64,000 nucleotides of DNA. It comes from Aliiroseovarius lamellibrachiae (GTDB lineage: Bacteria; Pseudomonadota; Alphaproteobacteria; Rhodobacterales; Rhodobacteraceae). Both the position numbers and the translations under genes were made by a program. Under the pieces are notes generated by a model. It saw nothing but the letters and a program-made list of their open reading frames with translations, did not search any database and was not told where the DNA came from. Location: contig NZ_JAHEVJ010000009.1 in assembly GCF_018599245.1 (NCBI RefSeq), positions 62,001 through 126,000 on the forward strand. The letters are read 5' to 3'. Below are positions 9,886 to 38,586 of this stretch, one piece after another; position 1 is the stretch's first letter; every line of letters begins with the position of its first letter.

Positions 9886-9898
9886 CACTCCCTACGGG

Positions 9899-9922
9899 TG
9901 CCCCGGGCTTAGGCTCGGGGCA
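9899..9922 (+). other. Intercistronic hairpin after binding-protein gene
   Basis: TGCCCCGGGC (9899-9908), loop TTAG, GCTCGGGGCA (9913-9922) gives a 10-bp stem with one G-U pair. No U-run follows. Such structures downstream of binding-protein genes commonly protect the upstream mRNA so that the receptor is made in excess over the permeases. Confidence 0.65.
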
Positions 9923-9996
9923 TCTGCCCCTTTACCCTCACGGTATCGGCAAGCCTTGTTCGGGCTTTCCCATGACGTGTCCACGGGAGGAACGAA

Positions 9997-10908: not shown

Positions 10909-10922
10909 GGAGGAGAGAAACC

Positions 10923-11771
10923 ATGTTCCCGATCCCAATCGAAAAACGCCCCCGCAGCGCGCAGGTCATCTATCAGGCCCTGGTGCCGATCGCCCTGATC
11001 ATGTGGCTACTGCCCCTGATCGCGGTTGCGCTCTTCTCCATTCGGCCACTCACGGATTTCACGAATGGAAACTACTGGGGCCTGCCATCTTCATTCGAGT
11101 TTTTCACCAATTACGGCAAGGTGTTCTTTGAATCGGACATGCCGCAATACATGCTAAACTCGATCCTGATTACGGTCCCTACTGTGGTCGGGGCGGTGGC
11201 CCTTTCCTGCATGACCGGATTTGCTCTGGGAATCTATAGGTTCCGCGGCAATCTGATCATCTTCTTCATGTTCATTGCCGGCAATTTCGTCCCCTTCCAG
11301 ATCCTGATGGTGCCGGTGCGTGACTTAACAGTTTCTGCCGGGCTTTATGACACAAAACTGGGGCTGGTGCTGTTCCACATCGCTTTCCAGACCGGGTTTT
11401 GCACGCTCTTTATGCGCAACTTCATTCGCGCCTTGCCTTTTGAGCTGATCGAGGCTGCTCGCGTCGAAGGCATCGCCGAATGGCGCATCTTCTGGTACGT
11501 GGTGCTTCCGTTGATGAAACCGGCCATCGCCGCCCTGTCCGTGCTGATTTTCACCTTCATCTGGAACGATTACTTCTGGGCGATTGTGCTGACACAAGGA
11601 CCGGATTCGCAACCTGTGACCGCCGGCATCACGTCGTTCAACTCGCAATTTGTGGCCCAATATCACCTAATGAGCGCGGGCAGCATTGTTGCCGCCCTGC
11701 CACCAGTGGCGATGTTTTTCATGATGCAACGCCACTTTATTGCAGGTCTCACCCTGGGAGCCGTGAAATGA
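10923..11771 (+). CDS. Sugar ABC transporter permease 2 (MalG/UgpE type)
   Basis: A 282-residue permease of the MalG type with six membrane segments and the EAA motif EAARVEGIAEWRIFWYVVLP. The ATG at 10923 is selected because AAGGAGGAG lies directly upstream; the longer frame would overlap the first permease. The stop overlaps the start of the alpha-galactosidase gene (ATGA), implying translational coupling of import and hydrolysis. Confidence 0.95.
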   Translation: MFPIPIEKRPRSAQVIYQALVPIALIMWLLPLIAVALFSIRPLTDFTNGNYWGLPSSFEFFTNYGKVFFESDMPQYMLNSILITVPTVVGAVALSCMTGFALGIYRFRGNLIIFFMFIAGNFVPFQILMVPVRDLTVSAGLYDTKLGLVLFHIAFQTGFCTLFMRNFIRALPFELIEAARVEGIAEWRIFWYVVLPLMKPAIAALSVLIFTFIWNDYFWAIVLTQGPDSQPVTAGITSFNSQFVAQYHLMSAGSIVAALPPVAMFFMMQRHFIAGLTLGAVK

Positions 11772-13852: not shown

Positions 13853-15558
13853 GCAAGGAACGCCGCAATCGCGCCTGGTATGGGATGCTCGACAAGGACG
13901 GTTTTATCCGCCGGTCCTGGATGAAAAACCAGGGATTTCCGGACCACGCTTTTGATGGGCGTCCTGTGATCGGCATTTGCAACACATGGTCTGAACTGAC
14001 CCCGTGCAATTCGGGCCTGCGAGAGCTGGCCGAAGGGGTGAAGCGCGGCGTGTGGGAGGCGGGCGGTTTTCCGGTTGAGTTCCCGGTGATGAGCCTGGGC
14101 GAGACCCAGATGAAGCCCACCGCGATGCTGTTTCGCAACCTTCTGGCGATGGACGTGGAGGAAAGCATTCGCGCCTATGGCATGGATGGCGTGGTGCTTT
14201 TGGGTGGATGTGACAAGACCACACCGGGTCAGTTGATGGGGGCGGCCTCGGTGGATCTGCCATCAATTGTGGTTTCTTCCGGGCCGATGCTGAACGGCAA
14301 ATGGAAAGGCCGCGATCTGGGATCGGGCACCGACGTGCGCAAATTCGCGATGGATGTGAAGGCGGGCGATATGACGCTGAAGGATTTCATGGCGACTGAA
14401 AGCGGCATGTCGCGGTCCAAGGGCGTGTGCAACACCATGGGCACGGCTTCCACCATGTCGTCGCTGACCGAAGCGCTGGGGATGTCGCTGCCGACCAATG
14501 GCGCGCTTCCGGCGGTGGATGCGCGGCGCATGGCGCTGGCGCATATGACGGGCAAACGCATTGTCGAGATGGTGGAAGAGGACCTGAAACTGTCGGACGT
14601 CTTGACCAAGGAAAGCTTTGAGAATGCGATCTTGACCAACGCCGCCCTGGGCGGATCGACCAACGCTGTGGTGCATCTTCTGGCGCTGGCGGGCCGGGTT
14701 GGCGTCGACCTGTCCATGGGGGATTTCGAAATCGGTGGTGAGATCCCGCTTCTTGTCAACTGCATGCCCTCGGGTAAATACTTGATGGAGGATTTCTGTT
14801 ACGCAGGTGGCGTTCCCGCGGTGTTAAAGGAAATCGCCCACAAGCTGCGCAAGGCCAACACGGTAATGGGGCGCGACATCTCGCATTATTATGAAGAGGC
14901 GGAATGCTACAATCGCGATGTGATCTATGCGTTTGATGCGCCGTTGAAACCGGCGGCGGGGCTGCGGGTTCTGCGCGGCAACTTGGCGCCGAACGGCGCG
15001 ATTGTGAAACCTTCGGCGGCCTCTGACCACCTGCTTGAACATGAAGGCGAGGCCTATGTGTTTGAAACGATCGAAGAGCTGAAAGCCAATATCGACCGCG
15101 ACGACCTGCCGGTGGATGAAACCACCATCCTCGTGCTGAAAAACTGCGGCCCGAAAGGCTATCCGGGCATGCCCGAAGTGGGCGACATGCCGGTGCCGGG
15201 AAAACTGGTGAAAAAGGGTGTGCGCGACATCGTGCGCGTCTCTGATGCGCGCATGTCAGGCACCGCGTTCGGCACCGTTGTCTTACATGTTGCGCCTGAA
15301 GCCACGGCCGGCGGGCCGCTTGCGCTGGTCAGGACGGGGGACCGGATCCGCCTTTCGGCCCAAAACGGCGTGCTGGAGTTGCTGGTTGATCAGGCCGAGA
15401 TGAACAAGCGCCGCGCCGCCTGGACCGCGCCCGAACCGCATTACACCCGTGGCTATGCCAAAATGTATGTCGATCACGTACTGCAGGCCGACAAAGGCGC
15501 GGATCTGGATTTTCTGGTGGGCAAAGATACCCGCCCTGTCACACGAGAGAGCCACTGA
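13849..15558 (+). CDS. IlvD/Edd-family sugar-acid dehydratase, probable D-galactonate dehydratase
   Basis: A 569-residue Fe-S dehydratase of the IlvD/EDD superfamily. Cluster-ligand regions are visible as CNTWSELTPCN, GGCDKTTPG and GVCNTMGTASTM. It is closest in feel to the L-arabinonate/galactonate-type sugar-acid dehydratases rather than to biosynthetic IlvD (SKERRNRAWYGMLDKDGFIRRSW start). Some family members are known to act on D-galactonate as well as L-arabinonate. The operon encodes every other De Ley-Doudoroff step but no enolase-superfamily DgoD, so this protein probably supplies 2-dehydro-3-deoxygalactonate. ATGA overlap upstream, TGATG overlap downstream. Confidence 0.9.
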   Translation: MSKERRNRAWYGMLDKDGFIRRSWMKNQGFPDHAFDGRPVIGICNTWSELTPCNSGLRELAEGVKRGVWEAGGFPVEFPVMSLGETQMKPTAMLFRNLLAMDVEESIRAYGMDGVVLLGGCDKTTPGQLMGAASVDLPSIVVSSGPMLNGKWKGRDLGSGTDVRKFAMDVKAGDMTLKDFMATESGMSRSKGVCNTMGTASTMSSLTEALGMSLPTNGALPAVDARRMALAHMTGKRIVEMVEEDLKLSDVLTKESFENAILTNAALGGSTNAVVHLLALAGRVGVDLSMGDFEIGGEIPLLVNCMPSGKYLMEDFCYAGGVPAVLKEIAHKLRKANTVMGRDISHYYEEAECYNRDVIYAFDAPLKPAAGLRVLRGNLAPNGAIVKPSAASDHLLEHEGEAYVFETIEELKANIDRDDLPVDETTILVLKNCGPKGYPGMPEVGDMPVPGKLVKKGVRDIVRVSDARMSGTAFGTVVLHVAPEATAGGPLALVRTGDRIRLSAQNGVLELLVDQAEMNKRRAAWTAPEPHYTRGYAKMYVDHVLQADKGADLDFLVGKDTRPVTRESH

Positions 15559-16322
15559 TGACTGCCACATTTCATGACCTCAAAGACGCCTCCATCTTCA
15601 TCACCGGAGGGGGCTCCGGCATTGGGGCGGCACTGACCGAAGGGTTCCTTCGCCAAGGAGCCAAGGTCGGGTTCATTGGCCGCTCGGACGCCTCGGCTTT
15701 TGTCAACCAGATGGAAGATGAGACCGGTAACCGCCCGCATTTCGTGCAGGGTGACATCACCGATATTCCCGCGTTGAAAGCGGCGATGGAAGATTGCGCG
15801 CATCTTAATGGCCCGCTCACCGTGCTTGTGAACAATGCCGCCAATGATCAGCGCCACAGCACCGAAGAGGTGAGCGAAGACTTCTGGGATTGGGCACAGG
15901 CGGTGAATCTGAAGGCCTATTTCTTTGCCTGTCAGGCCGCGATTGCGGGGATGCGCGCCCAAGGCGGCGGGTCAATCATTAACTTCACCTCGATCAGCTA
16001 CATGATGGGCAACACGGGCTATCCTGCTTACACCACTGCCAATTCCGGCATCAATGGGATGACACGGTCCCTGGCCCGCGAGTTTGGCCCCGACAAGATC
16101 CGCGTGAACGCGCTCGCCCCGGGGTGGGTGCTGACGCAAAAGCAGTTGGACATGTGGGCCGAACCTGAAGCCTTGGCGGCCCATCTCGACCGCCAATGCC
16201 TCAAGGAGCATCTTACGCCCGAAGACATCGTCGCCTCGACCCTGTTTCTGGCCTCATCCTCCAGCCGGATGATCACGGGGCAGGCTTTGGTCGTTGATGG
16301 CGGCGTTGTGGTGACGGGGTGA
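15558..16322 (+). CDS. SDR-family oxidoreductase, probable D-galactose 1-dehydrogenase with YxxxN active site
   Basis: A 254-residue short-chain dehydrogenase with the cofactor motif TGGGSGIGAA near residues 15-24 and the NNAA motif. The expected catalytic YxxxK appears as Tyr158-TTA-Asn162 (PAYTTANSGING): the codon at 16041-16043 is AAT, so the canonical Lys is Asn. The rest of the fold, including the C-terminal GQALVVDGG, is intact. Position in the operon predicts oxidation of galactose to galactono-lactone. The substitution may be tolerated with a rearranged active site, or the enzyme may have changed role. It starts within the preceding stop codon. Confidence 0.9.
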   Translation: MTATFHDLKDASIFITGGGSGIGAALTEGFLRQGAKVGFIGRSDASAFVNQMEDETGNRPHFVQGDITDIPALKAAMEDCAHLNGPLTVLVNNAANDQRHSTEEVSEDFWDWAQAVNLKAYFFACQAAIAGMRAQGGGSIINFTSISYMMGNTGYPAYTTANSGINGMTRSLAREFGPDKIRVNALAPGWVLTQKQLDMWAEPEALAAHLDRQCLKEHLTPEDIVASTLFLASSSSRMITGQALVVDGGVVVTG

Positions 16323-17233
16323 CGGCTATGACATCCACTCTCGACTGGATTGCCGTCGACTGGGGCACCACCCATTTGCGGCTCTGGCTGATGGCCAAGG
16401 ATGGGCAGGTGCTCGACCGGCGTGACAGCGATCAAGGGATGGGCAAGCTCATACCTGATCAGTTTGCCCCGACCTTGGCGGCGCTTCTGTCGGACGTGCC
16501 AAATGCCAGCGCCTATCCAGTCATCATCTGTGGCATGGCCGGGGCCCAGCAGGGGTGGGCCGAAGCACCTTACGTGACCACTCCCTGCCCCCCTCCGGGG
16601 GCTGAAATTGCCACACATGCACCTGACACTGACTGGGATGTGCGCATCTTGCCTGGGGTCAAACAGATACACCCGGCAGATGTGATGCGCGGCGAGGAAA
16701 CCCAGATTGCTGGGCTTCTGCTTGAGAATCATGGCTTCGAAGGCACGCTCTGCCTGCCTGGCACCCACAACAAATGGGTGCGTATCAAGGTCGGTCAGAT
16801 CACCGAGTTTCGCACGTTCATGACCGGCGAGCTTTTTGCCCTGATCAGCGGGCAATCCGTGTTGCGCCATTCGGTGGACACAAACGATCACGATCAAGAA
16901 GCGTTTGAGACGGCTTTGGGTGAGGCCATGGCCGATCCATCCGCCCTCGCGGCCAACCTCTTTTCCCTGCGCGCCGAAGGGCTTTTAAACGGCCTGTCCA
17001 CCGCCGCCGCGCGCGCACGCTTGTCTGCCCTGTTAATCGGTGCGGAACTGGCAGCCACACGCGCGTTCTGGCAAGAAGACGAGGTGGTTATCCTCGGCGA
17101 AGGTGACGTGGCCCGGGCCTATGAAACCGCGTTGAAAACAGCGGGCGGTAAAGCACGTTGTGTCGATGCCGAAACACTGACCTTGGCGGGGCTGCGATCC
17201 GCCTACGCACAATTGGGAAAGGCCGCATTATGA
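16319..17233 (+). CDS. dgoK: 2-dehydro-3-deoxygalactonokinase
   Basis: A DgoK-family sugar-acid kinase of about 304 residues, phosphorylating 2-dehydro-3-deoxy-D-galactonate at C6. The N-terminal phosphate-binding motif WIAVDWGTTHLRLWL, the ICGMAGAQQGW segment and the LCLPGTHNKWV segment are diagnostic. The GTG at 16319 overlaps the SDR stop codon; an ATG at 16328 is an alternative start, three codons on. It is the committed phosphorylation step of the galactonate route and is coupled by ATGA to the aldolase gene. Confidence 0.95.
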   Translation: MTAMTSTLDWIAVDWGTTHLRLWLMAKDGQVLDRRDSDQGMGKLIPDQFAPTLAALLSDVPNASAYPVIICGMAGAQQGWAEAPYVTTPCPPPGAEIATHAPDTDWDVRILPGVKQIHPADVMRGEETQIAGLLLENHGFEGTLCLPGTHNKWVRIKVGQITEFRTFMTGELFALISGQSVLRHSVDTNDHDQEAFETALGEAMADPSALAANLFSLRAEGLLNGLSTAAARARLSALLIGAELAATRAFWQEDEVVILGEGDVARAYETALKTAGGKARCVDAETLTLAGLRSAYAQLGKAAL

Positions 17234-17835
17234 GCCGCAATATCATCGCCATCCTACGCGGGATCACCCCGGATGAAACCACCGACATTCTCGACGCGCT
17301 GATCGCCGCCGGGATCACCACAATTGAGGTTCCGCTGAACTCGCCCGACCCGTTCGATAGCATCGAACGCATGGTGAAACACGCGGGCAACCGGGCGGTG
17401 GTGGGTGCGGGGACCGTGTTGGATGTAACCTTTGTGGAACGTCTTGCGGGCATCGGCGCGCAACTGGTTGTGTCACCCGATGCCAATCCGGAGGTGATCG
17501 CGGCCACCAAGTCATATGGGATGGCCTCTTATCCCGGGGTACTGACCCCGACCGAAGCCTTTTCCGCCCTGCGCGCGGGGGCCGACGGGTTGAAGTTTTT
17601 CCCAGCGTTCAAATTGGGGCTCGAGGGTTTCAAGGCGCTTTCAGCGGTCCTGCCTGCGGGTACAAAATCCTATGCGGTGGGGGGCGTCGGCCCGGATGAT
17701 TTTGCAAGCTGGCTCAATGCAGGGATTACCGGATTTGGCATGGGGTCAAACATCTACAAACCCGGATACTCAGCTGATCAGGTTGCAAAGCTCGCAACCG
17801 AGATTGTCGCGGCTTACGACAAGGCCGCGCCATGA
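17230..17835 (+). CDS. dgoA: 2-dehydro-3-deoxy-6-phosphogalactonate aldolase
   Basis: A 201-residue class I aldolase of the KDPG/KDPGal family that splits 2-dehydro-3-deoxy-6-phosphogalactonate into pyruvate and glyceraldehyde 3-phosphate. The Schiff-base Lys lies in ADGLKFFPAF, with the catalytic Glu in TTIEVPLNSPDPF and the GAGTVLD loop. The start at 17230 overlaps the dgoK stop (ATGA); the longer upstream frame lies within dgoK. The SPDP segment and linkage to dgoK favour the galactonate rather than gluconate enzyme. Confidence 0.95.
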   Translation: MSRNIIAILRGITPDETTDILDALIAAGITTIEVPLNSPDPFDSIERMVKHAGNRAVVGAGTVLDVTFVERLAGIGAQLVVSPDANPEVIAATKSYGMASYPGVLTPTEAFSALRAGADGLKFFPAFKLGLEGFKALSAVLPAGTKSYAVGGVGPDDFASWLNAGITGFGMGSNIYKPGYSADQVAKLATEIVAAYDKAAP

Positions 17836-18677
17836 CGGCTGAGGTATTTTCTCATACCGTCTGCACTCTTGGGGAAGGCGCGTTCTGGCATCCGGAACGC
17901 GCGCAGTTTTTCTGGTTCGACATTCTGGGCAGGCGTCTGCTGACCCGAGAAGGCGACAAGGAGCAAACTTGGCAGTTTGACGAATGTGTCTCAGCCGCCG
18001 GTTGGGTGGATCGCAACACGCTGATCATCGCCAGCGCCTCGGCCTTATGGCAGTTCAACATCGGCAGCGGTGCGCGTGAAAAGCTGGTGGATCTGGAGCC
18101 TGAAAATGCCCTCACCCGCTCCAATGACGGGCGCGCGGACTCGCAGGGCGGGTTCTGGATCGGGACAATGGGCTATGATGCCGAACGCGGCGCTGGGGCA
18201 ATTTACCGGTACTATCGCGGAGAGCTGCGAAAGCTCTATGACAAAATCACCATCTCGAATGCGATCTGTTTTTCCCCTGATGGGCACCACGCTTATTTCA
18301 CCGATACAGAAGATGGGCGCGTGATGCGGCAAAGGCTGGATAAGACAGGCTGGCCGGTCGGCACGCCCGAGGTCTTCCTTGATCTGCGCAACCAAGAATT
18401 CGGAGCAGATGGTGCCGTGATAGATGCCTATGGCAATCTCTGGAACGCCCAGTGGGGCGCAGCGCGCATTGCCTGTTATGATCCCTCTGGCAAGCTGATC
18501 GAAAGCCAACCCGTACCAACCCCACAGGCGTCGTGCCCGGCCTTTGGTGGGCTGGATCTGAGTACGCTCTTTGTCACCACCGCAGCAGATGGGATCACGG
18601 GCGACAGCATGGCAGGTAAAACCTTTGCCATCCAAACCAACACCAACGGCCAACCCGAACATCAGGTCATATTGTGA
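17832..18677 (+). CDS. SMP-30/gluconolactonase-family lactonase, probable galactonolactonase
   Basis: A 281-residue six-bladed propeller lactonase. Metal-ligand regions are visible: Glu in TLGEGAFWHPE, Asn and Asp in TRSNDGRADSQGGFWIG, Asn in SNAICFSPDG and Asp in FGADGAVIDAYGNLW. In this operon it would hydrolyse galactono-1,4(or 1,5)-lactone from the dehydrogenase to galactonate. It overlaps dgoA by 4 bp and precedes the GH42 gene by 7 bp. Confidence 0.93.
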   Translation: MTAEVFSHTVCTLGEGAFWHPERAQFFWFDILGRRLLTREGDKEQTWQFDECVSAAGWVDRNTLIIASASALWQFNIGSGAREKLVDLEPENALTRSNDGRADSQGGFWIGTMGYDAERGAGAIYRYYRGELRKLYDKITISNAICFSPDGHHAYFTDTEDGRVMRQRLDKTGWPVGTPEVFLDLRNQEFGADGAVIDAYGNLWNAQWGAARIACYDPSGKLIESQPVPTPQASCPAFGGLDLSTLFVTTAADGITGDSMAGKTFAIQTNTNGQPEHQVIL

Positions 18678-18684
18678 GGCCAAC

Positions 18685-20586
18685 ATGAAACGTACATTGG
18701 GCACCTGTTATTACCCTGAACATTGGCCGGAAGAGATCTGGGCGGATGACGCGCGCCGCATGGTTGAGGCGGGCCTGACCTGGGTTCGGATCGGCGAGTT
18801 TTCCTGGTCCCGCCTGGAACCCACCCCTGGTGATCTGCAGTGGGAGTGGCTGGACCGTGCGATAGAGACCCTTGGCGCGGCCGGGCTGCGCGTGGTGCTG
18901 GGCACCCCCACCGCCACACCGCCGCGTTGGATGATCAACAAACACCCTGACATGCTCGCCGTGGATGCGCACGGGCAACCCCGTAAGTTTGGATCGCGCC
19001 GCCATTACTGTTTCAGTCATTTAGGCTATCGCGAGGAAGGTCGCCGCATCGCCCGGTTGATGGCCGAACGCTATGGGCGAAACCCATACATCGGGGCCTG
19101 GCAGACCGACAATGAATATGGCTGCCACGACACCACCGTTTCCTACTCCAATGCCGCGCGGGATGGCTTTCGGATTTGGCTTGCCGAGCGGTATGGCGAC
19201 ATCCATCGCCTGAACTCTGTGTGGGGCAATATCTTCTGGTCGATGGAATATTGTGCCTTTGACGAGGTGGACCTGCCGAACTTGACGGTAACCGAACCCA
19301 ACCCAGCCCATGTACAGGACTTCCGCCGTTATTCCTCGGATATGGTGGTGTTGTTCAACAAGGTGCAGGTGGAAGAGATCAAGGCCTGCACGTCTGCGCC
19401 CATATCGCATAATTACATGGGGCGGATCACCGACTTTGACCATTTCGCAGTGGGCACGGATCTGGATATTGCCACCTGGGACAGCTATCCGCTGGGGTTT
19501 CTTGAAGACCGGGTGGGGGCAGATGCAGCGCATCAACGTGCTTATGCACGCCAAGGGGATCCCGATTTTCAGGCCTTCCATCACGACCTCTACCGCGCTG
19601 TGGGGCACGGTCGCTGGTGGGTGATGGAACAACAGCCCGGCCCGGTCAATTGGGCGCCTTACAATCCCTCACCGCTGGCTGGCATGGTGCGGCTCTGGAC
19701 GTGGGAGGCTTTTGCCCATGGCGCGGAAGCGGTCTGCTACTTCCGATGGCGACAGGCCCCCTTTGCACAGGAACAGATGCATGCGGGCCTGTTGCGCCCT
19801 GATCGTCAGGACGCCCCCGCGATCCATGAGGCACGCGAAGTGGCGACAGAGCTTTCCGGGGCGCCGGACGTGCAGTTTCACAAAGCTCCCGTCGCCCTGA
19901 TCTTCGACTACGACGCCGATTGGGCCTGGACCACGCAACCACACGGGGCGGGACTGAGTTACTTCTCGCTGGTTTTTGACCATTACAAGGCACTGCGCCG
20001 GGCTGGGCTTTCGGTGGATATCCTTCCCCCTGACCACGAGGATTTCGCGGGGTACAGGTTGGTGCTCGCCCCAGGCATTATGTGTCTGCGCGACGGGTTG
20101 CGGCAGGCCCTGAATGATGCCAAGGGTCATGTGCTTTACGGGCCGCGCACCGGAGCGCGCGACGAAGGGTTTGCCATTCCCGTTCCTCTGCCCCCCGCCA
20201 TCAAAGGGTTGGATGTAACCGTATCACGGGTCGAGAGCTTGCGACCCGACATGCCGGTCACTCTGACTGATGGTGGGGCCGTGACGGGATATCTGGAAGA
20301 GCTTGAAGGGTCTGCGGACGTCCTGATGCAGACGAGCCAAAACCTACCCGTTGCCATGGCAACGGACAACCAGATCTATTGCGGCGCTTGGCTGGATGCA
20401 GCGGGACTTGATGTGATGGTGGCCCTGTTGTGCGATCGCGCCGGTGTTGAGCGTCAGCAGATGCCCGAAGGCGTGCGCACACGCCGGACCGCCACAGAGG
20501 AATTTTGGTTCAACCACACAACGCAAAGCGCGGATACCCCGTTTGGCGCCCTGCCCCCGGCCGGCGTATTGCGGCGCGTGCTGTGA
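18685..20586 (+). CDS. Beta-galactosidase, glycoside hydrolase family 42
   Basis: A 633-residue GH42 enzyme beginning MKRTLGTCYYPEHWPEE. The acid/base Glu is in WQTDNEYGC, and the nucleophile Glu is probably that in WWVMEQQPG. The trimerisation/Rossmann-like middle domain and the C-terminal Greek-key domain are present. A longer upstream frame overlaps the lactonase gene and is rejected; GAGGC sits 5 bp before this ATG. No signal peptide, so it acts on imported beta-galactosides. With the GH36 enzyme, the operon can remove both alpha- and beta-linked galactose. Confidence 0.95.
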   Translation: MKRTLGTCYYPEHWPEEIWADDARRMVEAGLTWVRIGEFSWSRLEPTPGDLQWEWLDRAIETLGAAGLRVVLGTPTATPPRWMINKHPDMLAVDAHGQPRKFGSRRHYCFSHLGYREEGRRIARLMAERYGRNPYIGAWQTDNEYGCHDTTVSYSNAARDGFRIWLAERYGDIHRLNSVWGNIFWSMEYCAFDEVDLPNLTVTEPNPAHVQDFRRYSSDMVVLFNKVQVEEIKACTSAPISHNYMGRITDFDHFAVGTDLDIATWDSYPLGFLEDRVGADAAHQRAYARQGDPDFQAFHHDLYRAVGHGRWWVMEQQPGPVNWAPYNPSPLAGMVRLWTWEAFAHGAEAVCYFRWRQAPFAQEQMHAGLLRPDRQDAPAIHEAREVATELSGAPDVQFHKAPVALIFDYDADWAWTTQPHGAGLSYFSLVFDHYKALRRAGLSVDILPPDHEDFAGYRLVLAPGIMCLRDGLRQALNDAKGHVLYGPRTGARDEGFAIPVPLPPAIKGLDVTVSRVESLRPDMPVTLTDGGAVTGYLEELEGSADVLMQTSQNLPVAMATDNQIYCGAWLDAAGLDVMVALLCDRAGVERQQMPEGVRTRRTATEEFWFNHTTQSADTPFGALPPAGVLRRVL

Positions 20587-21581
20587 GCGTCGAGGCAATT
20601 GCCACCTTGCCAGGCGGCGATGTGATCCTTCGGTTCACGCTGCAATCCAATCAATTGCGCGCCCGGGTACTGAGTTTTGGTGCGGCGCTGCAAAGCCTGT
20701 ATCTGGACGGGTTATCCCATTCTCTGGTGCTGGGATATGACACCCCGTTGAGTTACCTCGCCAACCCGGCCTATCTGGGTGTGATCGTAGGGCGTGTGGC
20801 CAATCGCATATCGGGCGGGCAGTTTTCACTTGATGGTCGGCGCTACGAATTGGACCGGAATGAAAATGGCAAAACCACGCTGCATGGCGGGCGCGACGGA
20901 TGCAGCCACCGGAATTGGGATGTTCTGGACCACGGAACCTCCCATGTGACACTCGGACTATGTCTGCCCGATGGGCATATGGGCTTTCCGGGCAAGATGG
21001 ATCTGACCGTCTCTTATCGCCTTTATGACACCAGTTTGCGGGTTGAGCTGTCGGCCCAAACGGACGCTCCCACGGTTTGTAATCCTGCGCCGCATATCTA
21101 CTTCAATCTCGATGGCAGGCCGAACATTGATGCCCATCTCCTGCAGCTGGAAAGCGATCAGGTCATTCCCGTGGAAAATGGCATTCCGCAGTCTGGCCCG
21201 GTTGCCGCCAGCACCCAAAATCTGGACATCACCCAGCCGCGTCGTGTTCCGCCCGGCCTGGATCATCATTTCTGTTTTTTCCCACACGCAGGGGCCCCTA
21301 GGTTGATGGCCACCGTGTCAGCCTCTGGGATAGCAATGGAGGTGCGATCCACAGCGCCGGGATTGCAGATCTATGATGGCAGCGGTTTAGAGGTCCGTGG
21401 CGAAGGGCTGAATGGGACAAACTATGGTCCGCGCGCAGGTCTCGCACTTGAACCGCATTGCTGGATAGATGCTCCCAATCAGGCCTGGTCGCATCAAGCC
21501 GCCCTAAAACCCGGCGAAATATTTCACACTCAAAGCGAATTCTGTTTCCAGCAGACCACCCCGCATCAACGCATTACATAA
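20583..21581 (+). CDS. Aldose 1-epimerase (galactose mutarotase)
   Basis: A 332-residue mutarotase that interconverts alpha- and beta-galactose so both glycosidase products can enter the dehydrogenase step. The GTG at 20583 overlaps the GH42 stop codon (GTGA) and is preferred to an upstream ATG inside the GH42 gene. Key residues include the GRVANRI region, Arg/His around KTTLHGGRDG, His in NPAPHIYFNLDG and the C-terminal Glu in GLALEPHCW. It is the last gene of the 13-kb operon. Confidence 0.93.
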   Translation: MSVEAIATLPGGDVILRFTLQSNQLRARVLSFGAALQSLYLDGLSHSLVLGYDTPLSYLANPAYLGVIVGRVANRISGGQFSLDGRRYELDRNENGKTTLHGGRDGCSHRNWDVLDHGTSHVTLGLCLPDGHMGFPGKMDLTVSYRLYDTSLRVELSAQTDAPTVCNPAPHIYFNLDGRPNIDAHLLQLESDQVIPVENGIPQSGPVAASTQNLDITQPRRVPPGLDHHFCFFPHAGAPRLMATVSASGIAMEVRSTAPGLQIYDGSGLEVRGEGLNGTNYGPRAGLALEPHCWIDAPNQAWSHQAALKPGEIFHTQSEFCFQQTTPHQRIT

Positions 21582-27529: not shown

Positions 27530-27979
27530 TCAAAGCACATCAAGCGACACTTTCACCCTGTCCATGACCACCGAAGTTTTGAACCGGCTGATGTTTGAGG
27601 CGTCAAAAAAGTAAGTCTGTGTAAACTCTTCGTATTCCTGAATATTTTCGACATTCAGGATAAGGATGAAATCACCCTCGCCGGTCGTGTAATAACATTG
27701 CTGCACACAGGGCGCACCGCGCATGCGACGCTTGAACGCATCCAAAGACGCGCGGTTTTCACGTTCTAAAATGACTTCGACAATGATGGTCATCTCGCGC
27801 CCCAATTTGGCAGGGGACAACACCGCGATGTCACGCTCGATCACACCATTTGCTCGAAGCTTTTGCAGGCGCTTTTGCACGGTCGGTGCAGACAAGCCAA
27901 CATCTTGACTGATCACTTCAGCCGTCAGGCGCGCATTGGATTGCACCATCCGCAAAATTTCTCGATCCTTGTCGTCCAT
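27530..27979 (-). CDS. Lrp/AsnC-family transcriptional regulator
   Basis: A 149-residue feast/famine regulator with an N-terminal winged HTH (DKDREILRMVQSNARLTAEV, then LSAPTVQKRLQKLRANGVIERD) and a C-terminal RAM ligand domain. It diverges from the M20-DpaL-M24-EutA-like cluster across 121 bp. Ectoine catabolic operons are also often controlled by an AsnC-type regulator (DoeX), so this is the presumed local control protein responding to an amino-acid-like intermediate. Confidence 0.92.
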   Translation of the reverse strand: MDDKDREILRMVQSNARLTAEVISQDVGLSAPTVQKRLQKLRANGVIERDIAVLSPAKLGREMTIIVEVILERENRASLDAFKRRMRGAPCVQQCYYTTGEGDFILILNVENIQEYEEFTQTYFFDASNISRFKTSVVMDRVKVSLDVL

Positions 27980-28100
27980 TTCCGAATCACATCTACTATT
28001 TGCCGAACCACGATGAATTTAGTCACAAAACACCAAATATCCTATCACATCTTGCTTCACTTCCCCATGATCTTGTTACCACACCGCCCATGAGGACCCC

Positions 28101-29252
28101 ATGACCGACTTTCACGACAAGCTGATCGCGATGCGTCGCGATTTTCATCGCCACCCCGAGCTTGGCTTTCACGAAGCCCGCACCAAATCTGTGGTTGCGG
28201 ATCATTTGCGCGCGCTTGGGTTAGAGGTGCATGAAGGCGTCGGCGTTGTCGGGGTTCTAAAGGCTGGCCAAGGCAATCGCGCGATTGGGTTGCGCGCGGA
28301 TATGGACGCGCTGCCCATTCACGAAACATCTTCGCATGATTATGTTTCTGTGGACGCGGGCAAAATGCACGCCTGTGGGCATGATGGCCATATGACAATG
28401 TTGCTCGGGGCCGCTGAAAAGCTGTCGCAGGATCCAGATTTTGACGGGACTGTCGTGTTCATTTTCCAACCCAATGAGGAACATGGGCTTGGGGCGAAAG
28501 CGATGATCGACGAGGGGGTGCTTGCGCGTTTTCCGATCGAAGAAGTTTATGCAATCCATAACCTGCCCGGCGCGCCAGAGGGCCAGATCTCATCCCGGAC
28601 CGGTCAGATTTGCAACAGCGAAAGCCTGTTTGAAATCACCATTCACGGCCAAGGCGGACATGCCTCGATGCCGCAGGTCGGCGTGGATGCCATCACGGTT
28701 GGCGCGGAGATGGTGCAAGCTTTGCAGACCATCGTGGCACGTAAACTCGCGCCCGGATCTGGTGCTGTGGTGTCTGTGACCGAATTTCTGACCGATGGGC
28801 AACGCAATGTGCTTCCTGGACGCGCGACCTTAAAGGGCGACGTGCGGGCCCGATTGCCGGAAGATCGCAAAGAAATTGAACGTCATATGCGTCAGATTGC
28901 CACAGGCGTGGCCCTTGCGCATGGGATCACAGCCGATGTGTCTTTTGTGACCGAGTTCATTGAGACCATCAACAGCGCAGGCCCGGTCGAAGCGGTTTAC
29001 CGCGCGGGGGAAAGCGCCGGGTGCGAGGTTGTCAAAAACCGCCCGCCAATGAGTTTTTCTGAAGACTTTGCGCATTTCTCAGACGCGGTTCCCGGATGTT
29101 TCCTCCTTCTTGGCAATGGGACCACTGGTCCAAACAGCCAACCGCTTCACGCTGCAGATTATGATTTTAACGACGCGCTTTTGCCCATTGGGGCCGCGTT
29201 TTGGGTGCAATTGGTCAAAGACCGTTTGCCCGCACGAAAGGACAGAGGATGA
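28101..29252 (+). CDS. M20-family amidohydrolase (N-acyl amino acid / YgeY-like)
   Basis: A 383-residue dizinc M20 hydrolase of the hippurate-hydrolase type. Metal-site segments are HACGHDGH (about residues 93-100) and QPNEEHGLGAKAM; the dimerisation domain carries GQGGHASMPQVGVD. These enzymes free an amino acid from an N-acyl or N-carbamoyl group. The next gene, overlapping by 4 bp, encodes diaminopropionate ammonia-lyase, which parallels the ygeX-ygeY pairing in enterobacteria, so the expected product is 2,3-diaminopropionate or a relative. Confidence 0.9.
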   Translation: MTDFHDKLIAMRRDFHRHPELGFHEARTKSVVADHLRALGLEVHEGVGVVGVLKAGQGNRAIGLRADMDALPIHETSSHDYVSVDAGKMHACGHDGHMTMLLGAAEKLSQDPDFDGTVVFIFQPNEEHGLGAKAMIDEGVLARFPIEEVYAIHNLPGAPEGQISSRTGQICNSESLFEITIHGQGGHASMPQVGVDAITVGAEMVQALQTIVARKLAPGSGAVVSVTEFLTDGQRNVLPGRATLKGDVRARLPEDRKEIERHMRQIATGVALAHGITADVSFVTEFIETINSAGPVEAVYRAGESAGCEVVKNRPPMSFSEDFAHFSDAVPGCFLLLGNGTTGPNSQPLHAADYDFNDALLPIGAAFWVQLVKDRLPARKDRG

Positions 29253-30442
29253 CTGATGTTTACGCCGCCGCGACGCTAGAACACGTTTCGGGAAACCCGA
29301 CTTTTGGCGATGCCGCCACACGCGTTTTGTCACCGAAAGATTTTGCAGACGCCTGGGATGAGATCACCGCATGGGACGGATATGCCCCAACACCGCTGAT
29401 CAATCTTGCGGGGATGGCGAAGCATATTGGCGTGGCCCGTTTGGATTACAAACACGAAGGTCCGCGGTTTGGATTGGGCAGCTTCAAGGCGCTTGGCGGG
29501 TCTTATGCGGCGATGCGGGTGCTTGGCCGCGAGCTGTCAAACCGATTGGGGCACGACGTCACATTGGCCGACATCCGCACCGGAAAATACGCAGATGACT
29601 GCGCCAAGATCACCTTGGTGTCCGCCACCGATGGCAACCACGGCCGCTCCCTTGCCTGGGGATGCCAACGCGTTGGCGCCCCTTGTCGAATTTACATTCA
29701 CGCCGAAGTCAGCGAAGGGCGCGCGCAGGCCATGCGCGATTTGGGCACAGAGGTTATTCGGATTGATGGCGACTATGACGCCTCTGTTGCATTGGCACGG
29801 GAAGAGGCCGATACCAATGGCTGGTTTGTTGTTTCCGACACCTCTTGGGAAGGATATTCCGAACCGCCGCGTGACGTGATGGCAGGCTACGGCGTGATGA
29901 CAACAGAGGCCTGTGAAGCCTTGGATCAAGCCCCCACACATGTGTTTTTACAAGGTGGCGTTGGCGGATTGGCCGCGTCAGTAGCGGCCCTTTTGCGCCA
30001 ATACTGGGGCGCGGATGCCCCACGCGTTGTCATCGTGGAACCTGATCTTGCCGCCTGCCTTTTTGAAAGCGCACGGGCGGGTGCGCCGACCACCGTCAAC
30101 ATTGCCGAGGAAACCATTATGGCCGGGCTTTCATGCGGTGAACCTTCGGAAATGGCGTGGGAAATTCTAACCGAAGAGGCCAGCGATTTCCTGACGATGC
30201 CCGACAGCATCGTTGGCCCAACCGTGCGCGGATTGGCCCGGCCAGAATTTGGCGACCCTGTGATTGAAGCCGGGGAAAGCGCCGTGGCTGGTTTGGCGGC
30301 GGTGATTGCGGCGCGCACATCAGATGCGCTTTCAACAAAGCTGGGCTTGAACGACACATCACGCGTGCTGTTTATTGGATCAGAAGGGGTCACCGACCCT
30401 GACATTTTTGCTATGATCATGAGCGGGAAAGACCATGTCTGA
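29249..30442 (+). CDS. dpaL: Diaminopropionate ammonia-lyase
   Basis: A 397-residue PLP fold-type II lyase that degrades 2,3-diaminopropionate to pyruvate and two ammonia. The Schiff-base Lys is in FGLGSFKALGGSYA; SATDGNHGRSLAWG and VVSDTSWEGYSEPPRDVMAGYG are hallmark segments of DpaL/YgeX and distinguish it from threonine dehydratase and from ectoine-cluster EutB. The ATG at 29249 overlaps the M20 stop (ATGA); an earlier start lies inside the M20 gene. The product end overlaps the M24 gene by 8 bp. Confidence 0.93.
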   Translation: MTDVYAAATLEHVSGNPTFGDAATRVLSPKDFADAWDEITAWDGYAPTPLINLAGMAKHIGVARLDYKHEGPRFGLGSFKALGGSYAAMRVLGRELSNRLGHDVTLADIRTGKYADDCAKITLVSATDGNHGRSLAWGCQRVGAPCRIYIHAEVSEGRAQAMRDLGTEVIRIDGDYDASVALAREEADTNGWFVVSDTSWEGYSEPPRDVMAGYGVMTTEACEALDQAPTHVFLQGGVGGLAASVAALLRQYWGADAPRVVIVEPDLAACLFESARAGAPTTVNIAEETIMAGLSCGEPSEMAWEILTEEASDFLTMPDSIVGPTVRGLARPEFGDPVIEAGESAVAGLAAVIAARTSDALSTKLGLNDTSRVLFIGSEGVTDPDIFAMIMSGKDHV

Positions 30443-31613
30443 TACGAAGGCAAACGCCCCAGATCGCGGATTTTCAGAGGCCGAATTTGCAGCCCGCACA
30501 GCCAATGCACAGGCGCTTATGGCCAAGCGTGGCCTCGCGGGGATGCTGCTTTTGACCGAACCCGACGTGCGGTATTTCAGCGGGTTTCAGACGCTCTTTT
30601 GGCAAAGCCCCACGCGACCTTGGTTTTTATTTGTGCCCGCAAGCGGCAAGCCAATTGCGATCATTCCAGAAATTGGGGCAGCCTTGATGCGACAAACCTG
30701 GGTGGAGGATATCCGCACCTGGAGCGCCCCTGCCCCTGAAGATGACGGGATCAGCTTGCTGACCGAATTGTTGTCACCTCTCGCGAACGCCGACGCAACA
30801 ATTGGGGTGATGAAAGGCCACGAAACCGCGTTGCGCATGCCGCTTGGCGATTACGAACGGTTGATCGCGGGGCTGCCCGGTCTGACCATCGCAGATGCCA
30901 CCGGAATTCTGCGCGATTTGCGGATGGTGAAATCCGAGGCCGAGATCACCAAGCTGCGCCATATCTGCGCCATCGGGTCCCAGACCTTTGCGCGCGTGCC
31001 CGAGTTTTCCCAAAGCGGACAGCCCTTTGAAGAGGTTTTTCGCGCCTTTCGCAGGGAAGCTTTGGCACAGGGTGCTGACGATGTTCCGTATTTGGTTGGG
31101 GGGGCCGATCAGGGTGGATATCACGATGTAATCTCGCCTCCCACACGCAGGCCACTTGCCACGGGCGACATCATGATGCTCGATACTGGTGCCACATGGG
31201 ACGGGTATTTTTGTGACTTTGATCGCAATTGGGCAATTGGTCAGGCGGATGATATGTCTCGTCGGGCCTATGATGTTTTATGGCGCGCGACCGAGGCAGG
31301 TATTGCCGCCGCACGTCCCGGCACCACCTGTCGCGAGCTGTTTCAGGCGATGCAAAATGTGATCTGCGAGTTGGACAATCAGGGTGGCGATGTCGGTCGC
31401 CTTGGGCATGGCTTGGGCATGCAGCTCACCGAATGGCCCTCTCATGCTGCTTTTGATGATACGGTGATCAAAGAGGGCATGGTGCTGACGTTGGAACCCT
31501 CTTTGGGGTACGGCGATGGGCGCATTATGGTGCATGAAGAAAACATCGTTGTGCGCACTGGCGGTGCAGAATTGCTGACCACCCGCGCCGCACCAGAGTT
31601 ACCTGTGATCTAA
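30435..31613 (+). CDS. M24-family metallohydrolase (Xaa-Pro peptidase / ectoine hydrolase DoeA-like)
   Basis: A 392-residue pita-bread-fold protein with a creatinase-like N-terminal domain. All five metal ligands can be placed: Asp in LDTGATWDGYF, Asp in CDFDRNW, His in RLGHGLGMQ, Glu in LTLEPS and Glu in VHEENIV. The family includes Xaa-Pro dipeptidases, creatinase and ectoine hydrolase (DoeA/EutD). Placement after an AsnC regulator, an N-acyl hydrolase and beside an EutA-like protein favours ring or amide hydrolysis of a diamino-acid derivative rather than general peptide turnover; that is inference. Confidence 0.9.
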   Translation: MSDTKANAPDRGFSEAEFAARTANAQALMAKRGLAGMLLLTEPDVRYFSGFQTLFWQSPTRPWFLFVPASGKPIAIIPEIGAALMRQTWVEDIRTWSAPAPEDDGISLLTELLSPLANADATIGVMKGHETALRMPLGDYERLIAGLPGLTIADATGILRDLRMVKSEAEITKLRHICAIGSQTFARVPEFSQSGQPFEEVFRAFRREALAQGADDVPYLVGGADQGGYHDVISPPTRRPLATGDIMMLDTGATWDGYFCDFDRNWAIGQADDMSRRAYDVLWRATEAGIAAARPGTTCRELFQAMQNVICELDNQGGDVGRLGHGLGMQLTEWPSHAAFDDTVIKEGMVLTLEPSLGYGDGRIMVHEENIVVRTGGAELLTTRAAPELPVI

Positions 31614-31622
31614 GGGGACGAT

Positions 31623-32369
31623 ATGAAGCTTGATTTTCAAACGGATGACGGGATCGGCACCCGCGCCAACATGGGTGTGATTGTCCTTGAAACAGACGAG
31701 ACGCTAGAGCATGAATTTGCCCAGATGATGGATCTTGATGGGGTCGCCCTGTACCATTCGCGCATCCCAATGGTCGCGGAAATCAAACCCGAAACATTGG
31801 CCCAAATGGAAGCTGATTTGCCGGCATCCGCACGGCTTTTGCCGAAATCCCTGTCTTTTGACGTGATCGGATATGGCTGCACCTCCGCCTCAACCGTGAT
31901 TGGATCGGACAAAGTGGCCGCGGCAATCAGGTCGGTTTGTCCCACCGCCCAAGTGACAGATCCGCTGGCCGCGATCATTGCCGCCGGGAAACATTTGGGG
32001 GCGCAAAAGCTGGGCTTTGTCACGCCATACGTGGCAGAGGTTTCCGCCCAGATGCGAGGCAAGCTGGAGGACGCGGGATTTGAAATCACCGGGTTTGGCT
32101 CTTTCGAGGAAGGCAATGATCAAGTGGTGGCCCGCATCACCGAAGCCTCAATTGTTAACGCGGCAGAGCGCGTCGCCAAGATGGCCGATTGCGATGCGCT
32201 GGTCATTTCCTGCACAAATTTACGTTGCTTGAACATCATTGATGACATCGAGGCCCGAACGGGCGTTGCCGTGATTTCCAGCAATCAAGCGTTGGCGTGG
32301 CACATGCAAAAGCTTGCCGGGCTCACCACGTCCCGCAAGGGCATGGGAAGGCTCTACACCGCAGAATAG
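31623..32369 (+). CDS. Maleate isomerase / arylmalonate decarboxylase family protein (EutA-like)
   Basis: A 248-residue Asp/Glu-racemase-superfamily protein. The two catalytic-type cysteines lie in IGYGCTSASTVIG and VISCTNLRC, with the motif NQALAWHMQKLAG near the C-terminus. Family members include maleate isomerase, arylmalonate decarboxylase and EutA of ectoine-utilisation clusters, whose exact step is not well established. It starts 9 bp after the M24 gene, clearly in the same transcript, and ends 20 bp before a convergent gene. Confidence 0.9.
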   Translation: MKLDFQTDDGIGTRANMGVIVLETDETLEHEFAQMMDLDGVALYHSRIPMVAEIKPETLAQMEADLPASARLLPKSLSFDVIGYGCTSASTVIGSDKVAAAIRSVCPTAQVTDPLAAIIAAGKHLGAQKLGFVTPYVAEVSAQMRGKLEDAGFEITGFGSFEEGNDQVVARITEASIVNAAERVAKMADCDALVISCTNLRCLNIIDDIEARTGVAVISSNQALAWHMQKLAGLTTSRKGMGRLYTAE

Positions 32370-36656: not shown

Positions 36657-37205
36657 TCAGCTTCGCGATAACACACTGGCTGGGCGCGCTTTGTAAATTG
36701 CACCTGTCACCAAACCTGCCAATACGGCTTTGATCACATCACCCGGCATAAAGGGCAGCATCGCGGCAACGAGCGCTTCGCCCAATCCTGCGGGTTTCAT
36801 CAGCATGTAATAGGGCACGGCGATCAGATAGAGCGCGCCAATCCCACCGACAACTGCGGCAACACCCGCCACCAGCGAGACCTTGTCAGACCGCCAGTTT
36901 TCCATCACCAGACCCGTCACAAATGCAGCCACTGGAAAGCCAAACAAAAAGCCCGCCCATGGTGTCGAAAATACGCCCAGACCACCACGGCCCCCGGCCA
37001 AAAGCGGCAGACCAGCAGCAACCAGAACCAAAAACAACACCACCGCAAGCGCGCCGCGCTTTGCGCCCAGAATAGTGCCACACAACATGATGCCCATGCT
37101 TTGTGCGGTGATAGGAATCCCCGTTGCCAGGGTGATCTTTGGGATCAGACCCAGCGCTGCAATCAAAGCAGCAAATAGGGCAATCATCGTTACATTTCGT
37201 TCCAT
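36657..37205 (-). CDS. bioY: Biotin ECF transporter S component
   Basis: A 182-residue six-helix membrane protein that binds biotin. It has the BioY pattern GIPITAQSMGIMLCGTILGAKRGALAV and the G-rich PLLAGGRGGLGVFSTPWAGFLFGFP segment. The ATG at 37205 is chosen over a GTG 9 bp upstream. It is the third gene of a bioM-bioN-bioY operon on the minus strand, starting 21 bp after bioN. Confidence 0.95.
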   Translation of the reverse strand: MERNVTMIALFAALIAALGLIPKITLATGIPITAQSMGIMLCGTILGAKRGALAVVLFLVLVAAGLPLLAGGRGGLGVFSTPWAGFLFGFPVAAFVTGLVMENWRSDKVSLVAGVAAVVGGIGALYLIAVPYYMLMKPAGLGEALVAAMLPFMPGDVIKAVLAGLVTGAIYKARPASVLSRS

Positions 37206-37226
37206 ACGTCTCACTCTCTTATATTT

Positions 37227-37841
37227 CTATTTCTGTTGGTTTTCGGTGATCCCGCCGCGCGCGCGCAGGGCGTCTGCAATATGATCGGCATCGTCAAGGG
37301 CAAGGATCGTAAACGGAAAGATGATCCGCCATCCGGGGCGCCGTGCGGATCGGGCCCGCCAAGCTTGCGCCAACCCCTGCCCTTTTTCCACAAGCACGGG
37401 TGTGAAGCGGATGACCAGCGCGATCGCAATCTCCAACGCTTCGGTCGGCAGGCCAAGCCGCTTGAGGGGGCGTGTTAACCAGCGGATCACCGCGATAAAC
37501 TCAGAAAGCTGCGTGGTCATTGTGACGAGATTGGCAAGCCCAACAGCCGTCACCATACGCAACACAATCACGGCGCCTTCATAAGGGGTGCGGGTGACAA
37601 TGTGCCAGATCGCGATGATCACGACGAACATCCAAATCACCTTGACCGCCCGCCATCCAGCCGCCGCAAAGTCGCGTCCGGGGGCAAGATACAGCGCGAG
37701 GGTTGCGACAAATGCAATCAAGTGGAGCGACAGAGTTTCGATCTGAAACAAAACAAGTGTCGCCAAACAAAGCGCCCCTAACTTGGCACCTGCGGGCCAG
37801 CCATGCGCGCGGGTTTTAATCGGAGAGGTCAGTGAGATCAT
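37227..37841 (-). CDS. bioN: Biotin ECF transporter transmembrane component (EcfT)
   Basis: A 204-residue T component linking the ATPase to BioY. Several membrane segments are followed by the cytoplasmic coupling region carrying the paired short motifs of EcfT proteins: the ARR-type sequence AWRARSARR (near residue 165) and the C-terminal ADALRARGG. Its start overlaps the end of bioM by 26 bp. Confidence 0.92.
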   Translation of the reverse strand: MISLTSPIKTRAHGWPAGAKLGALCLATLVLFQIETLSLHLIAFVATLALYLAPGRDFAAAGWRAVKVIWMFVVIIAIWHIVTRTPYEGAVIVLRMVTAVGLANLVTMTTQLSEFIAVIRWLTRPLKRLGLPTEALEIAIALVIRFTPVLVEKGQGLAQAWRARSARRPGWRIIFPFTILALDDADHIADALRARGGITENQQK

Positions 37842-38586
37842 TGCCCTCGCCTTTCTTGGTCATTTCACCCACGAACGCAGCCAAGACATCAGCCGACGCA
37901 CCGGATCCGGCGACACGCCCTTGGTCAAGCCAAACGACATGATCGTAGCCCGCTAAATCTTCGGGGGCGTGGGTAACATGAACCAATGTCCCTTGATACC
38001 GCGCCAACCGCCGGGACAATTGCGCGCGCGTTGGCAAATCCAGGCCGGAAAAGGGTTCATCCAACAAAAGAACCTTGGGCTGCATGGCCAGCACCGATAT
38101 CAAACAAACGAGCTGCTTTTGCCCTTGCGACAAGCGGGCAACAGATGCCTCAGCCCAATGGGCGACACCATAGTCTGTCAGCCAGGTTAGAGCCTCTTTT
38201 TCCGCATCTAAATGATCATGCCCCATTTGTTTCAGACCAAAACTGATCTCTTCGATGACCGTCGGGAAAATAATTTGGTGATCGGGGTTTTGAAACAGAA
38301 TGCCAACGGTGGAAAGCGCCCCTTTTCGGTCACGCGCTGGATCAATTCCGGCCACCGAAACACGGCCTTTTTCCGGCTGAGCCAACCCAGCAATCACCCG
38401 CGACAAGGTGGTTTTCCCAGACCCATTTCGCCCAACAATTCCCACACGTCGGGCACAAAAGGACACCGAGATATCCTCTAGAATTACCCGCCCTTCACGC
38501 CCAAATGTGACGTGATCCAATGCGATCTCCGGCAAATGTGTTGGCGTGGTCAAGCGGGCGTCCTTTGCACTTTCTCGTCGCGGCAT
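37816..38586 (-). CDS. bioM: Biotin ECF transporter ATP-binding component
   Basis: A 256-residue ATPase with Walker A VGRNGSGKTT, signature LSQGQKQ, Walker B VLLLDEPFSGLD and switch His in VTHAPED. The only in-frame ATG (38586) has no good ribosome-binding site; a TTG at 38553, preceded by AAGGA at 8 bp, would give a start nearer the usual family N-terminus and may be the real one. First gene of bioMNY. I saw no BioR-type box upstream. Confidence 0.92.
   Translation of the reverse strand: MPRRESAKDARLTTPTHLPEIALDHVTFGREGRVILEDISVSFCARRVGIVGRNGSGKTTLSRVIAGLAQPEKGRVSVAGIDPARDRKGALSTVGILFQNPDHQIIFPTVIEEISFGLKQMGHDHLDAEKEALTWLTDYGVAHWAEASVARLSQGQKQLVCLISVLAMQPKVLLLDEPFSGLDLPTRAQLSRRLARYQGTLVHVTHAPEDLAGYDHVVWLDQGRVAGSGASADVLAAFVGEMTKKGEGNDLTDLSD

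Follow-up and report, generated by a model that had tools for sequence, protein, structure and literature searches.

A conserved gene unit joining a 2,3-diaminopropionate ammonia-lyase to a distinct M24-family metallohydrolase in Aliiroseovarius lamellibrachiae

Five genes at 27530-32369 of a 64,000-nucleotide window of Aliiroseovarius lamellibrachiae contig NZ_JAHEVJ010000009.1 (all coordinates are positions within this window) belong to a conserved unit which, in our preferred reading, is a dedicated catabolic operon directed at 2,3-diaminopropionate (DAP). The operon, flanked and probably controlled by an AsnC-type regulator, would bring an N-substituted DAP (N-acyl, ureido or cyclic amidine/ureide) into central metabolism, and we hold this reading with moderate confidence. 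The conserved unit, the DAP-lyase step, the M24 metal-ligand set and the two-cysteine class of the EutA-like protein appear well supported by sequence comparison. We infer the order of the steps, the catabolic direction, the regulation, the bond cut by the M24 enzyme and the substrate. The genes and their control region are as follows.

27530-27979, minus strand: AsnC/Lrp-family regulator, divergent from the operon, from an open reading frame call (best NCBIfam match Lrp, 72 bits, below the cut-off of 233).
27980-28100, no strand: divergent control region between AsnC and M20, from an alignment of 31 distinct regions.
28101-29252, plus strand: M20D amidohydrolase / N-acyl-amino-acid deacylase (PF01546, M20_dimer).
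29249-30442, plus strand: 2,3-diaminopropionate ammonia-lyase, DpaL (PALP; NF006058, 465 bits against a cut-off of 276).
30435-31613, plus strand: M24-family metallohydrolase of a distinct subfamily (PF00557 and Creatinase_N).
31623-32369, plus strand: EutA-like protein of the Asp/Glu racemase - maleate isomerase - AMDase superfamily (PF17645, Amdase; TIGR02990, 178 bits).

A sequence-only reading of the window had named these five genes, and all were present, with Pfam and NCBIfam families that match the names given. It had also described them as one tightly coupled unit. This holds for the four plus-strand genes, which follow one another in the order M20, DpaL, M24 and EutA-like at distances of -4, -8 and +9 bases. 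The AsnC gene lies on the minus strand, 121 bases from M20, and is therefore divergent from the four and outside their transcript.

In the proposed scheme, the EutA-like two-cysteine enzyme would invert the alpha-carbon of the substrate or of an early intermediate, making both enantiomers usable. The M24 protein, as a dinuclear metallohydrolase, would cut a C-N bond and so free or open the DAP skeleton, the M20 enzyme would take off the remaining N-acyl-type group, and DpaL would split D- or L-DAP into pyruvate and two ammonia. Since the Escherichia coli DpaL, in the part of PMC12507026 cited here, is said to act equally well on the L and D isomers, a racemase, if it lies on the route, would act before DpaL.

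Conservation was assessed at the best 80 of at least 534 relatives found when named genomes were scanned with an M24 alignment. In this taxonomically narrow set, mostly Rhodobacteraceae, the 3.5 kb around M24 held an EutA-family gene at 66 loci, DpaL at 46, a 345-residue DpaL-like PALP protein (PALP345) at 14, M20 at 41 and AsnC at 43. The contiguous run M20-DpaL-M24-EutA was the commonest (21/80). For a class-wide set we took 40 of 53 further genomes in which a match was found, among 385 genomes of the class; here EutA was found near M24 at 20 loci, DpaL at 11, PALP345 at 7, and M20 and AsnC at 4 each. Three genera of one other family (L241, L243 and L248) carried AsnC, M20, DpaL, M24 and EutA in the order seen in the window, with M24 identities of 50-52%, and the same layout with AsnC was found in a gammaproteobacterial metagenome-assembled genome (L140).

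Co-occurrence was counted in 100 genomes of the family, one per genus, with thresholds placed at gaps in the match lists and shared ancestry uncorrected. A close DpaL (at least 64% identity) was found in 10 genomes, all of which had a close M24 (at least 66%), as opposed to 3 of the 90 genomes lacking a close DpaL (Fisher p = 1.7e-11); in one of the ten, G079, DpaL and M24 were on different contigs. When all listed matches were counted (DpaL at E<=1e-60, M24 at E<=1e-90), M24 was present in 16 of 18 DpaL genomes versus 34 of 82 others. The EutA-like protein was searched in 149 family genomes, where 86 matched at E<=1e-20 and 12 besides the source genome reached at least 61% identity, and 40 neighbourhoods were then read. 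The gene set thus occurs together beyond chance and is a conserved unit, and co-occurrence of the five genes is frequent.

The AsnC protein has relatives at 60-86% identity, which occupy the same divergent place in many loci. We aligned 31 distinct control regions of the AsnC-M20 type, the window's included. The AsnC-proximal 50 bases contained two conserved half-sites with the consensus GnTccGAAatTcaTCgca-N14-GCAAtnaatTTCgTc, of which the window's own copy is degenerate. As a palindrome, the motif beat all 30 shuffles of its own sequence in only 4 of the 31 regions; the window's region scored 8 matches of 15 against a shuffle mean of 8.8 and did not beat its shuffles. This putative AsnC operator motif is visible across relatives and weak in single sequences, including the window's.

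DpaL is the probable last step of the unit. The window protein passed NF006058 and missed the narrower TIGR03528 (314 bits against 532), and it shares 40% identity with E. coli YgeX across 346 residues. Residues K80, D128 and D197 were kept in 12/12 close rows, window included, and K80 and D128 fall in motifs that match Lys77 and Asp120 of the E. coli enzyme, reported as potential catalytic residues (PMC4000059, in the part cited). On this point the sequence-only reading, in which DpaL ends the pathway, is supported. In the PALP345 proteins of related clusters, Ala replaces the catalytic Asp in 12/12 rows. Their best match was diaminopropionate ammonia-lyase, near its cut-off (e.g., L049:9132-10169); given the substitution, this name is doubtful, and clusters with PALP345 may use another substrate than DpaL clusters. 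Elsewhere, SPO2196 of Ruegeria pomeroyi DSS-3, annotated as a diaminopropionate ammonia-lyase, is given as a predicted small RNA target in the cited portion of PMC4809877.

To place the M24 protein, a tree of 44 rows was built, among them 21 of the subfamily, 12 DoeA, 4 creatinase-like and 6 prolidase-type. It included E. coli PepQ, YpdF and PepP and two PepQ-like rows. A first tree, in which one long prolidase row stood beside the long APP row of the source genome, had been set aside, and the tree was rebuilt with the APP row omitted. The 21 rows formed one clade with support of 100/100, apart from the DoeA, creatinase and prolidase rows. This clade grouped with DoeA and creatinase rather than with the prolidase rows (88/85); the latter, only six and on long branches, fell outside it, and long-branch warnings persist in the tree.

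The active site separates the clade from both of its possible neighbours. The metal ligands D250, D261, H325, E354 and E368, which correspond to PepP D260, D271, H354, E383 and E406, were kept in 21/21 subfamily rows. The corresponding residues are E, P (T in a single row), Y, M and T in the 12 DoeA rows and N, A, H, E and H in the four creatinase-like rows. Two further PepP histidines, H243 and H361, were both kept in 6/6 prolidase rows, and His at the H243 column was also found in 12/12 DoeA and 4/4 creatinase-like rows. In the subfamily the H243 column is never His: it holds D in 17/21 rows, the window protein among them, and D, Q, E or S overall. The H361 column is T in 21/21. In the window protein a His directly precedes the H243 column; any His in this vicinity was found in only 3/21 rows. 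In the N-domain, F55-W56, S58 and R61-P62-W63 were invariant in 37 rows. By these residues the window M24 appears to be neither DoeA/EutD nor an ordinary prolidase, and to be a subfamily of its own within the M24 family.

Whole-protein comparisons gave a mixed picture. The window M24 scored 48.9 bits on the DoeA model TIGR02993 (cut-off 613). Its best profile matches in the PDB were dipeptidases (4ege, 156 bits; creatinase 1chm, 95; DoeA, 73), and public plasmid records annotate relatives as "Xaa-Pro peptidase family protein." An AlphaFold2 model (mean pLDDT of 88.5) matched DoeA 6yo9 and Xaa-Pro dipeptidase 5cde with tied Z-scores of 39.3 and 39.1, so that fold comparison failed as an arbiter between the two. 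The tree and the model score do not support the view of this protein as an exchanged ectoine core enzyme; nor does it cluster firmly with the Xaa-Pro dipeptidases, a placement which, together with rare co-occurrence of the genes, would have counted against the sequence-only reading. A second, parallel triad was seen at L113:14969-19443 beside Ehu-type genes; it consists of an M24-like protein in which every one of the five metal ligands is lost, another EutA-family protein and a 490-residue CysK-like PALP protein.

In the M20 enzyme, residues H90, C92, H94, E126/E127, H153 and H350, which we take to be the metal site, were identical in 11/11 rows, window included. Its best NCBIfam match was the M20-type DoeB2 model NF038260 (316 bits, cut-off 550). 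DoeB2 matches at E<=1e-60 were found in 100/100 family genomes, none over the cut-off (321-358 bits among the matches listed), and this similarity was discarded as generic and no support for ectoine use. An M20-type deacetylase had been counted as a departure from ectoine clusters; given NF038260, an M20 enzyme alone makes no such distinction. Against YgeY the window M20 scored 28.9 bits (cut-off 321), with a best BLAST E-value of 8.7.

The EutA-like protein fell short of the TIGR02990 EutA cut-off of 318 bits. Residues C86 and C197 were present in 38/38 EutA-family rows, ectoine-type included. Racemases of this superfamily, which includes hydantoin racemases, carry a second Cys where AMDase has Gly74 (PMC4996985, in the part cited). 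By that rule the two cysteines mark a racemase rather than an AMDase, and the protein is a probable two-cysteine racemase/epimerase. In a quick tree of 43 EutA-family proteins, on which we build little, it grouped with others that adjoin M24 (95 SH-aLRT).

Company in the relatives was counted at the 80 named loci within 9 kb of M24, at 45% identity or more to reference proteins. We found PotA-type genes at 7 loci, Ehu-type at 6, OpuAC/ProV at 5, creatinase at 5, an oxidase-GcvT protein at 8 and PhyH at 9. Compatible-solute-type transporters (Ehu, OpuAC/ProV, PotA, BCCT) thus occur in a minority of relatives. A Roseovarius plasmid relative has Ehu genes with its M24 unit, and in clusters of the L119/L123/L132 type EhuA of L132 and EhuC of L123 passed their cut-offs, with EhuB of L119 just short. 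Two rhizobial plasmids (L157, L161) carry AsnC and DpaL-M24-amino-acid ATP-binding cassette (ABC) transporter-Zn hydrolase, and on a Vibrio plasmid (L159) DpaL and RidA are divergent from M24-BCCT transporter-M20; none of the three has an annotated EutA. Together, the relatives' transporters suggest a small zwitterionic nitrogen compound, without naming it. N-methyl chemistry was considered and dropped, its oxidase-GcvT and PhyH genes being confined to a minority of loci. The loci L109, L119, L130, L132, L135 and L145 have GntR or PhyH and, for the most part, an oxidase-GcvT (dimethylglycine-dehydrogenase-like) gene together with a second EutA-family gene near M24, which hints at such chemistry. 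In L116, L137, L150, L236 and L237, M24 has a creatinase-like gene and a transporter of the PotA/SBP8 type nearby, which suggests that these islands also deal with guanidino or amine compounds.

A bolder version of our reading, which we put forward tentatively and consider unlikely, would make the unit the first pathway to be described for a marine compatible solute or betaine, so far unrecognised, with a DAP backbone, such as a five-membered cyclic ectoine analogue or an N-methylated or acylated DAP. Ectoine/betaine-type transporters would import this compound in some hosts, and a new metal-dependent M24 branch without the usual active-site histidines would open it.

The sequence-only reading had seen an ectoine cluster with its core enzymes exchanged. 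In this rival, M24 opens a cyclic amidine (e.g., 2-methylimidazoline-4-carboxylate), M20 deacetylates N-acetyl-DAP and DpaL acts last. Ectoine clusters likewise contain AsnC, EutA and Ehu transporters (PMC5924519, in the part cited), so the layouts are parallel. The M24 clade groups with DoeA and creatinase, 6yo9 heads the fold matches in its tie with 5cde, and ectoine-type transporters adjoin some relatives; at L156 a DoeA gene lies directly downstream (PALP345-M24-EutA-DoeA). Nevertheless, the M24 catalytic site is unlike DoeA's, whose ligand-free site it does not share, and none of M20, M24 and EutA passed its ectoine model. The source genome keeps its own doeA (623.7 bits, cut-off 613) on a separate contig, C18, where by eye a divergent AsnC-like gene flanks it and DoeB-like and aminotransferase genes lie alongside. 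No EutC match was found in this genome at E<=1e-80, a weak point against an ectoine cluster, since many known clusters are reported to lack parts of eutABC (PMC13188858 and PMC5924519, in part). Among the 100 family genomes, a close M24 had no significant link to DoeA (11/13 versus 57/87, p = 0.22) or to EutC (3/13 versus 21/87, p = 1); the notion of M24 units standing in for EutBC was not supported, and M24 and EutC are not mutually exclusive. A literature search for imidazoline-4-carboxylic acid with ectoine found nothing, and the main text of a 2026 survey of ectoine clusters contains neither "diaminopropionate" nor "M24" (PMC13188858). Nothing in the analysis shows a cyclic substrate, and the five-membered ectoine analogue was a guess. 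We consider this rival unlikely, and the exchange of core enzymes is not upheld.

In a second rival, the unit parallels the reductive breakdown of urate. Its substrate would be a ureido-DAP, cyclic or open (e.g., ureidomethylhydantoin, diureidopropionate or albizziin), which EutA racemises and M24 and M20 hydrolyse to DAP, the substrate of DpaL. In E. coli, ygeW, ygeX (DpaL), ygeY (M20) and hyuA are adjacent. This cluster is assigned to reductive urate degradation, where DAP is reached through a ring hydrolase and the M20 enzyme and YgeX yields pyruvate (PMC12507026 and PMC12990295, in part); conversion of ureidomethylhydantoin to albizziin, and of albizziin to pyruvate, is reported in vitro (PMC12507026). 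The hydantoin racemases of the EutA superfamily and the Zn-dependent hydrolase beside DpaL-M24 in rhizobial relatives would also fit. However, a search of 168 loci (from partly overlapping sets) at E<=1e-15, aimed at YgeW, YqeA, HyuA and YgeY with XdhD, YgfK and SsnA outside it, found 0, 0, 1 and 4, respectively, the window M20 is not YgeY, and urate breakdown by this pathway is reductive, with anaerobic or facultative bacteria as its known hosts. We consider the ureide route, too, improbable. The same pathway bears on the earlier statement that no described pathway has this gene set. The set itself is indeed not described in the open-licence literature searched at the level of titles and abstract openings, but a route that goes through ring opening and an M20 enzyme to DpaL has already been described for urate (PMC12507026, in the part cited).

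Peptide or acyl-amino-acid scavenging would need no dedicated pathway, with M24 as an Xaa-Pro-type dipeptidase, M20 as a generic aminoacylase and DpaL as a clean-up lyase. The prolidase metal ligands of M24, its dipeptidase profile matches and the ubiquity of M20 proteins at this DoeB2 level agree with it. The two PepP histidines, replaced in all subfamily rows and kept in all prolidase rows, speak against it, and it leaves the DpaL-M24 co-occurrence and the EutA partner unexplained; we regard it as quite improbable. Least probable of all is an accessory 5-hydroxyectoine route, in which EutA and DpaL/PALP take the place of EutABC after the genome's own ectoine hydrolase has acted: it draws on the DoeA gene of L156, on a source genome with doeA and no EutC match, and on the proposal, made without a biochemical test, that EutA inverts the hydroxyl for EutB (PMC5924519, in part), but in G076, a genome scored 100% complete, the DpaL/M24 unit is present with no DoeA match at E<=1e-100, M24 and EutC do not exclude each other, and the Asp that is catalytic in DAP lyases is retained in DpaL.

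Several observations weigh against a dedicated DAP operon. The contiguous run DpaL-M24-EutA lacks M20 at 15 of the 80 named loci. At 9/80 named and 15/40 class-wide loci, all five labelled partners are absent from the 3.5 kb around M24; some of these loci are contig ends or have diverged beyond the reach of the search. No annotated EutA adjoins M24 in L157, L158, L159 and L161, and L158 shows no DpaL either. At L040:9714-12815 the run is M20-DpaL-EutA, with no M24 between DpaL and EutA, and at L046 a stop interrupts the M24 reading. The pair of M24 and EutA also occurs beside PALP345 and is therefore not tied to DAP alone. In the window, no conserved transporter adjoins the unit. The upstream genes for a solute-binding protein (SBP), CocE/NonD and an HpaD-like protein and the downstream Old Yellow Enzyme (OYE)-type reductase had only scattered low-identity matches, with no conserved counterparts next to the unit in the loci searched.

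These four neighbours were accordingly dropped as unit members. Among the 12 close family loci, L040 was the sole case without M24 in between. No RNA family reached its gathering score in the part of the window from 15 to 40 kb. At 36657-38586, BioMNY-like energy-coupling factor (ECF) transporter genes were recognised by eye, and on plasmid L162 of Aliiroseovarius crassostreae the M24 unit lies between biotin synthesis genes and BioY, so this neighbourhood is partly common to both. A run at 8635-21581 has the appearance, by eye, of a galactoside/galactonate island: a sugar ABC transporter, alpha-galactosidase-like, dehydratase, short-chain dehydrogenase/reductase (SDR), DgoK-like kinase, KDPGal-aldolase-like, SMP30, GH42-like and epimerase genes.

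The unit turns up repeatedly among marine Rhodobacterales and relatives. If the DAP operon is real, a DAP-based marine metabolite would be common enough to keep a dedicated operon, and M24 would have a new branch with its own active site. Neighbourhoods of EutA and M24 should not be annotated as ectoine utilisation by default. With so few assays needed and the genes so tightly defined, the question is directly testable.

Among known systems, ectoine clusters (eutABCDE/doeABX) are the closest in composition. As the sequence-only reading pointed out, both have an AsnC-type regulator, an M24-fold hydrolase, a deacylase, a pyridoxal phosphate (PLP) fold-II enzyme and an EutA-family protein, and a few relatives of the unit share the Ehu-type transporter as well. 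The unit differs in that its M24 comes from another clade and has a metal site, DpaL replaces EutB, M20 is below the DoeB2 cut-off, EutC has no match and doeA lies elsewhere in the genome. With the Xaa-Pro dipeptidases and aminopeptidase P (M24B), the window M24 has in common the fold and all five metal ligands, whereas both non-ligand histidines are replaced and an invariant N-domain motif is present. Hydantoin racemase - hydantoinase - carbamoylase systems combine an Asp/Glu-superfamily racemase, a ring or amide hydrolase and an M20-family N-acyl hydrolase; by this logic the unit resembles them, with M24 in place of the cyclic amidohydrolase and DpaL added. The nearest functional parallel, by analogy, appears to be the reductive urate cluster, where DpaL also comes last, after a ring hydrolase and an M20 enzyme have stripped the DAP skeleton. 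There the unit has M24 for HyuA, an unrelated M20 branch and EutA in addition, and clear homology is limited to DpaL. The unit would thus be a second, unrelated assembly around the same DpaL last step.

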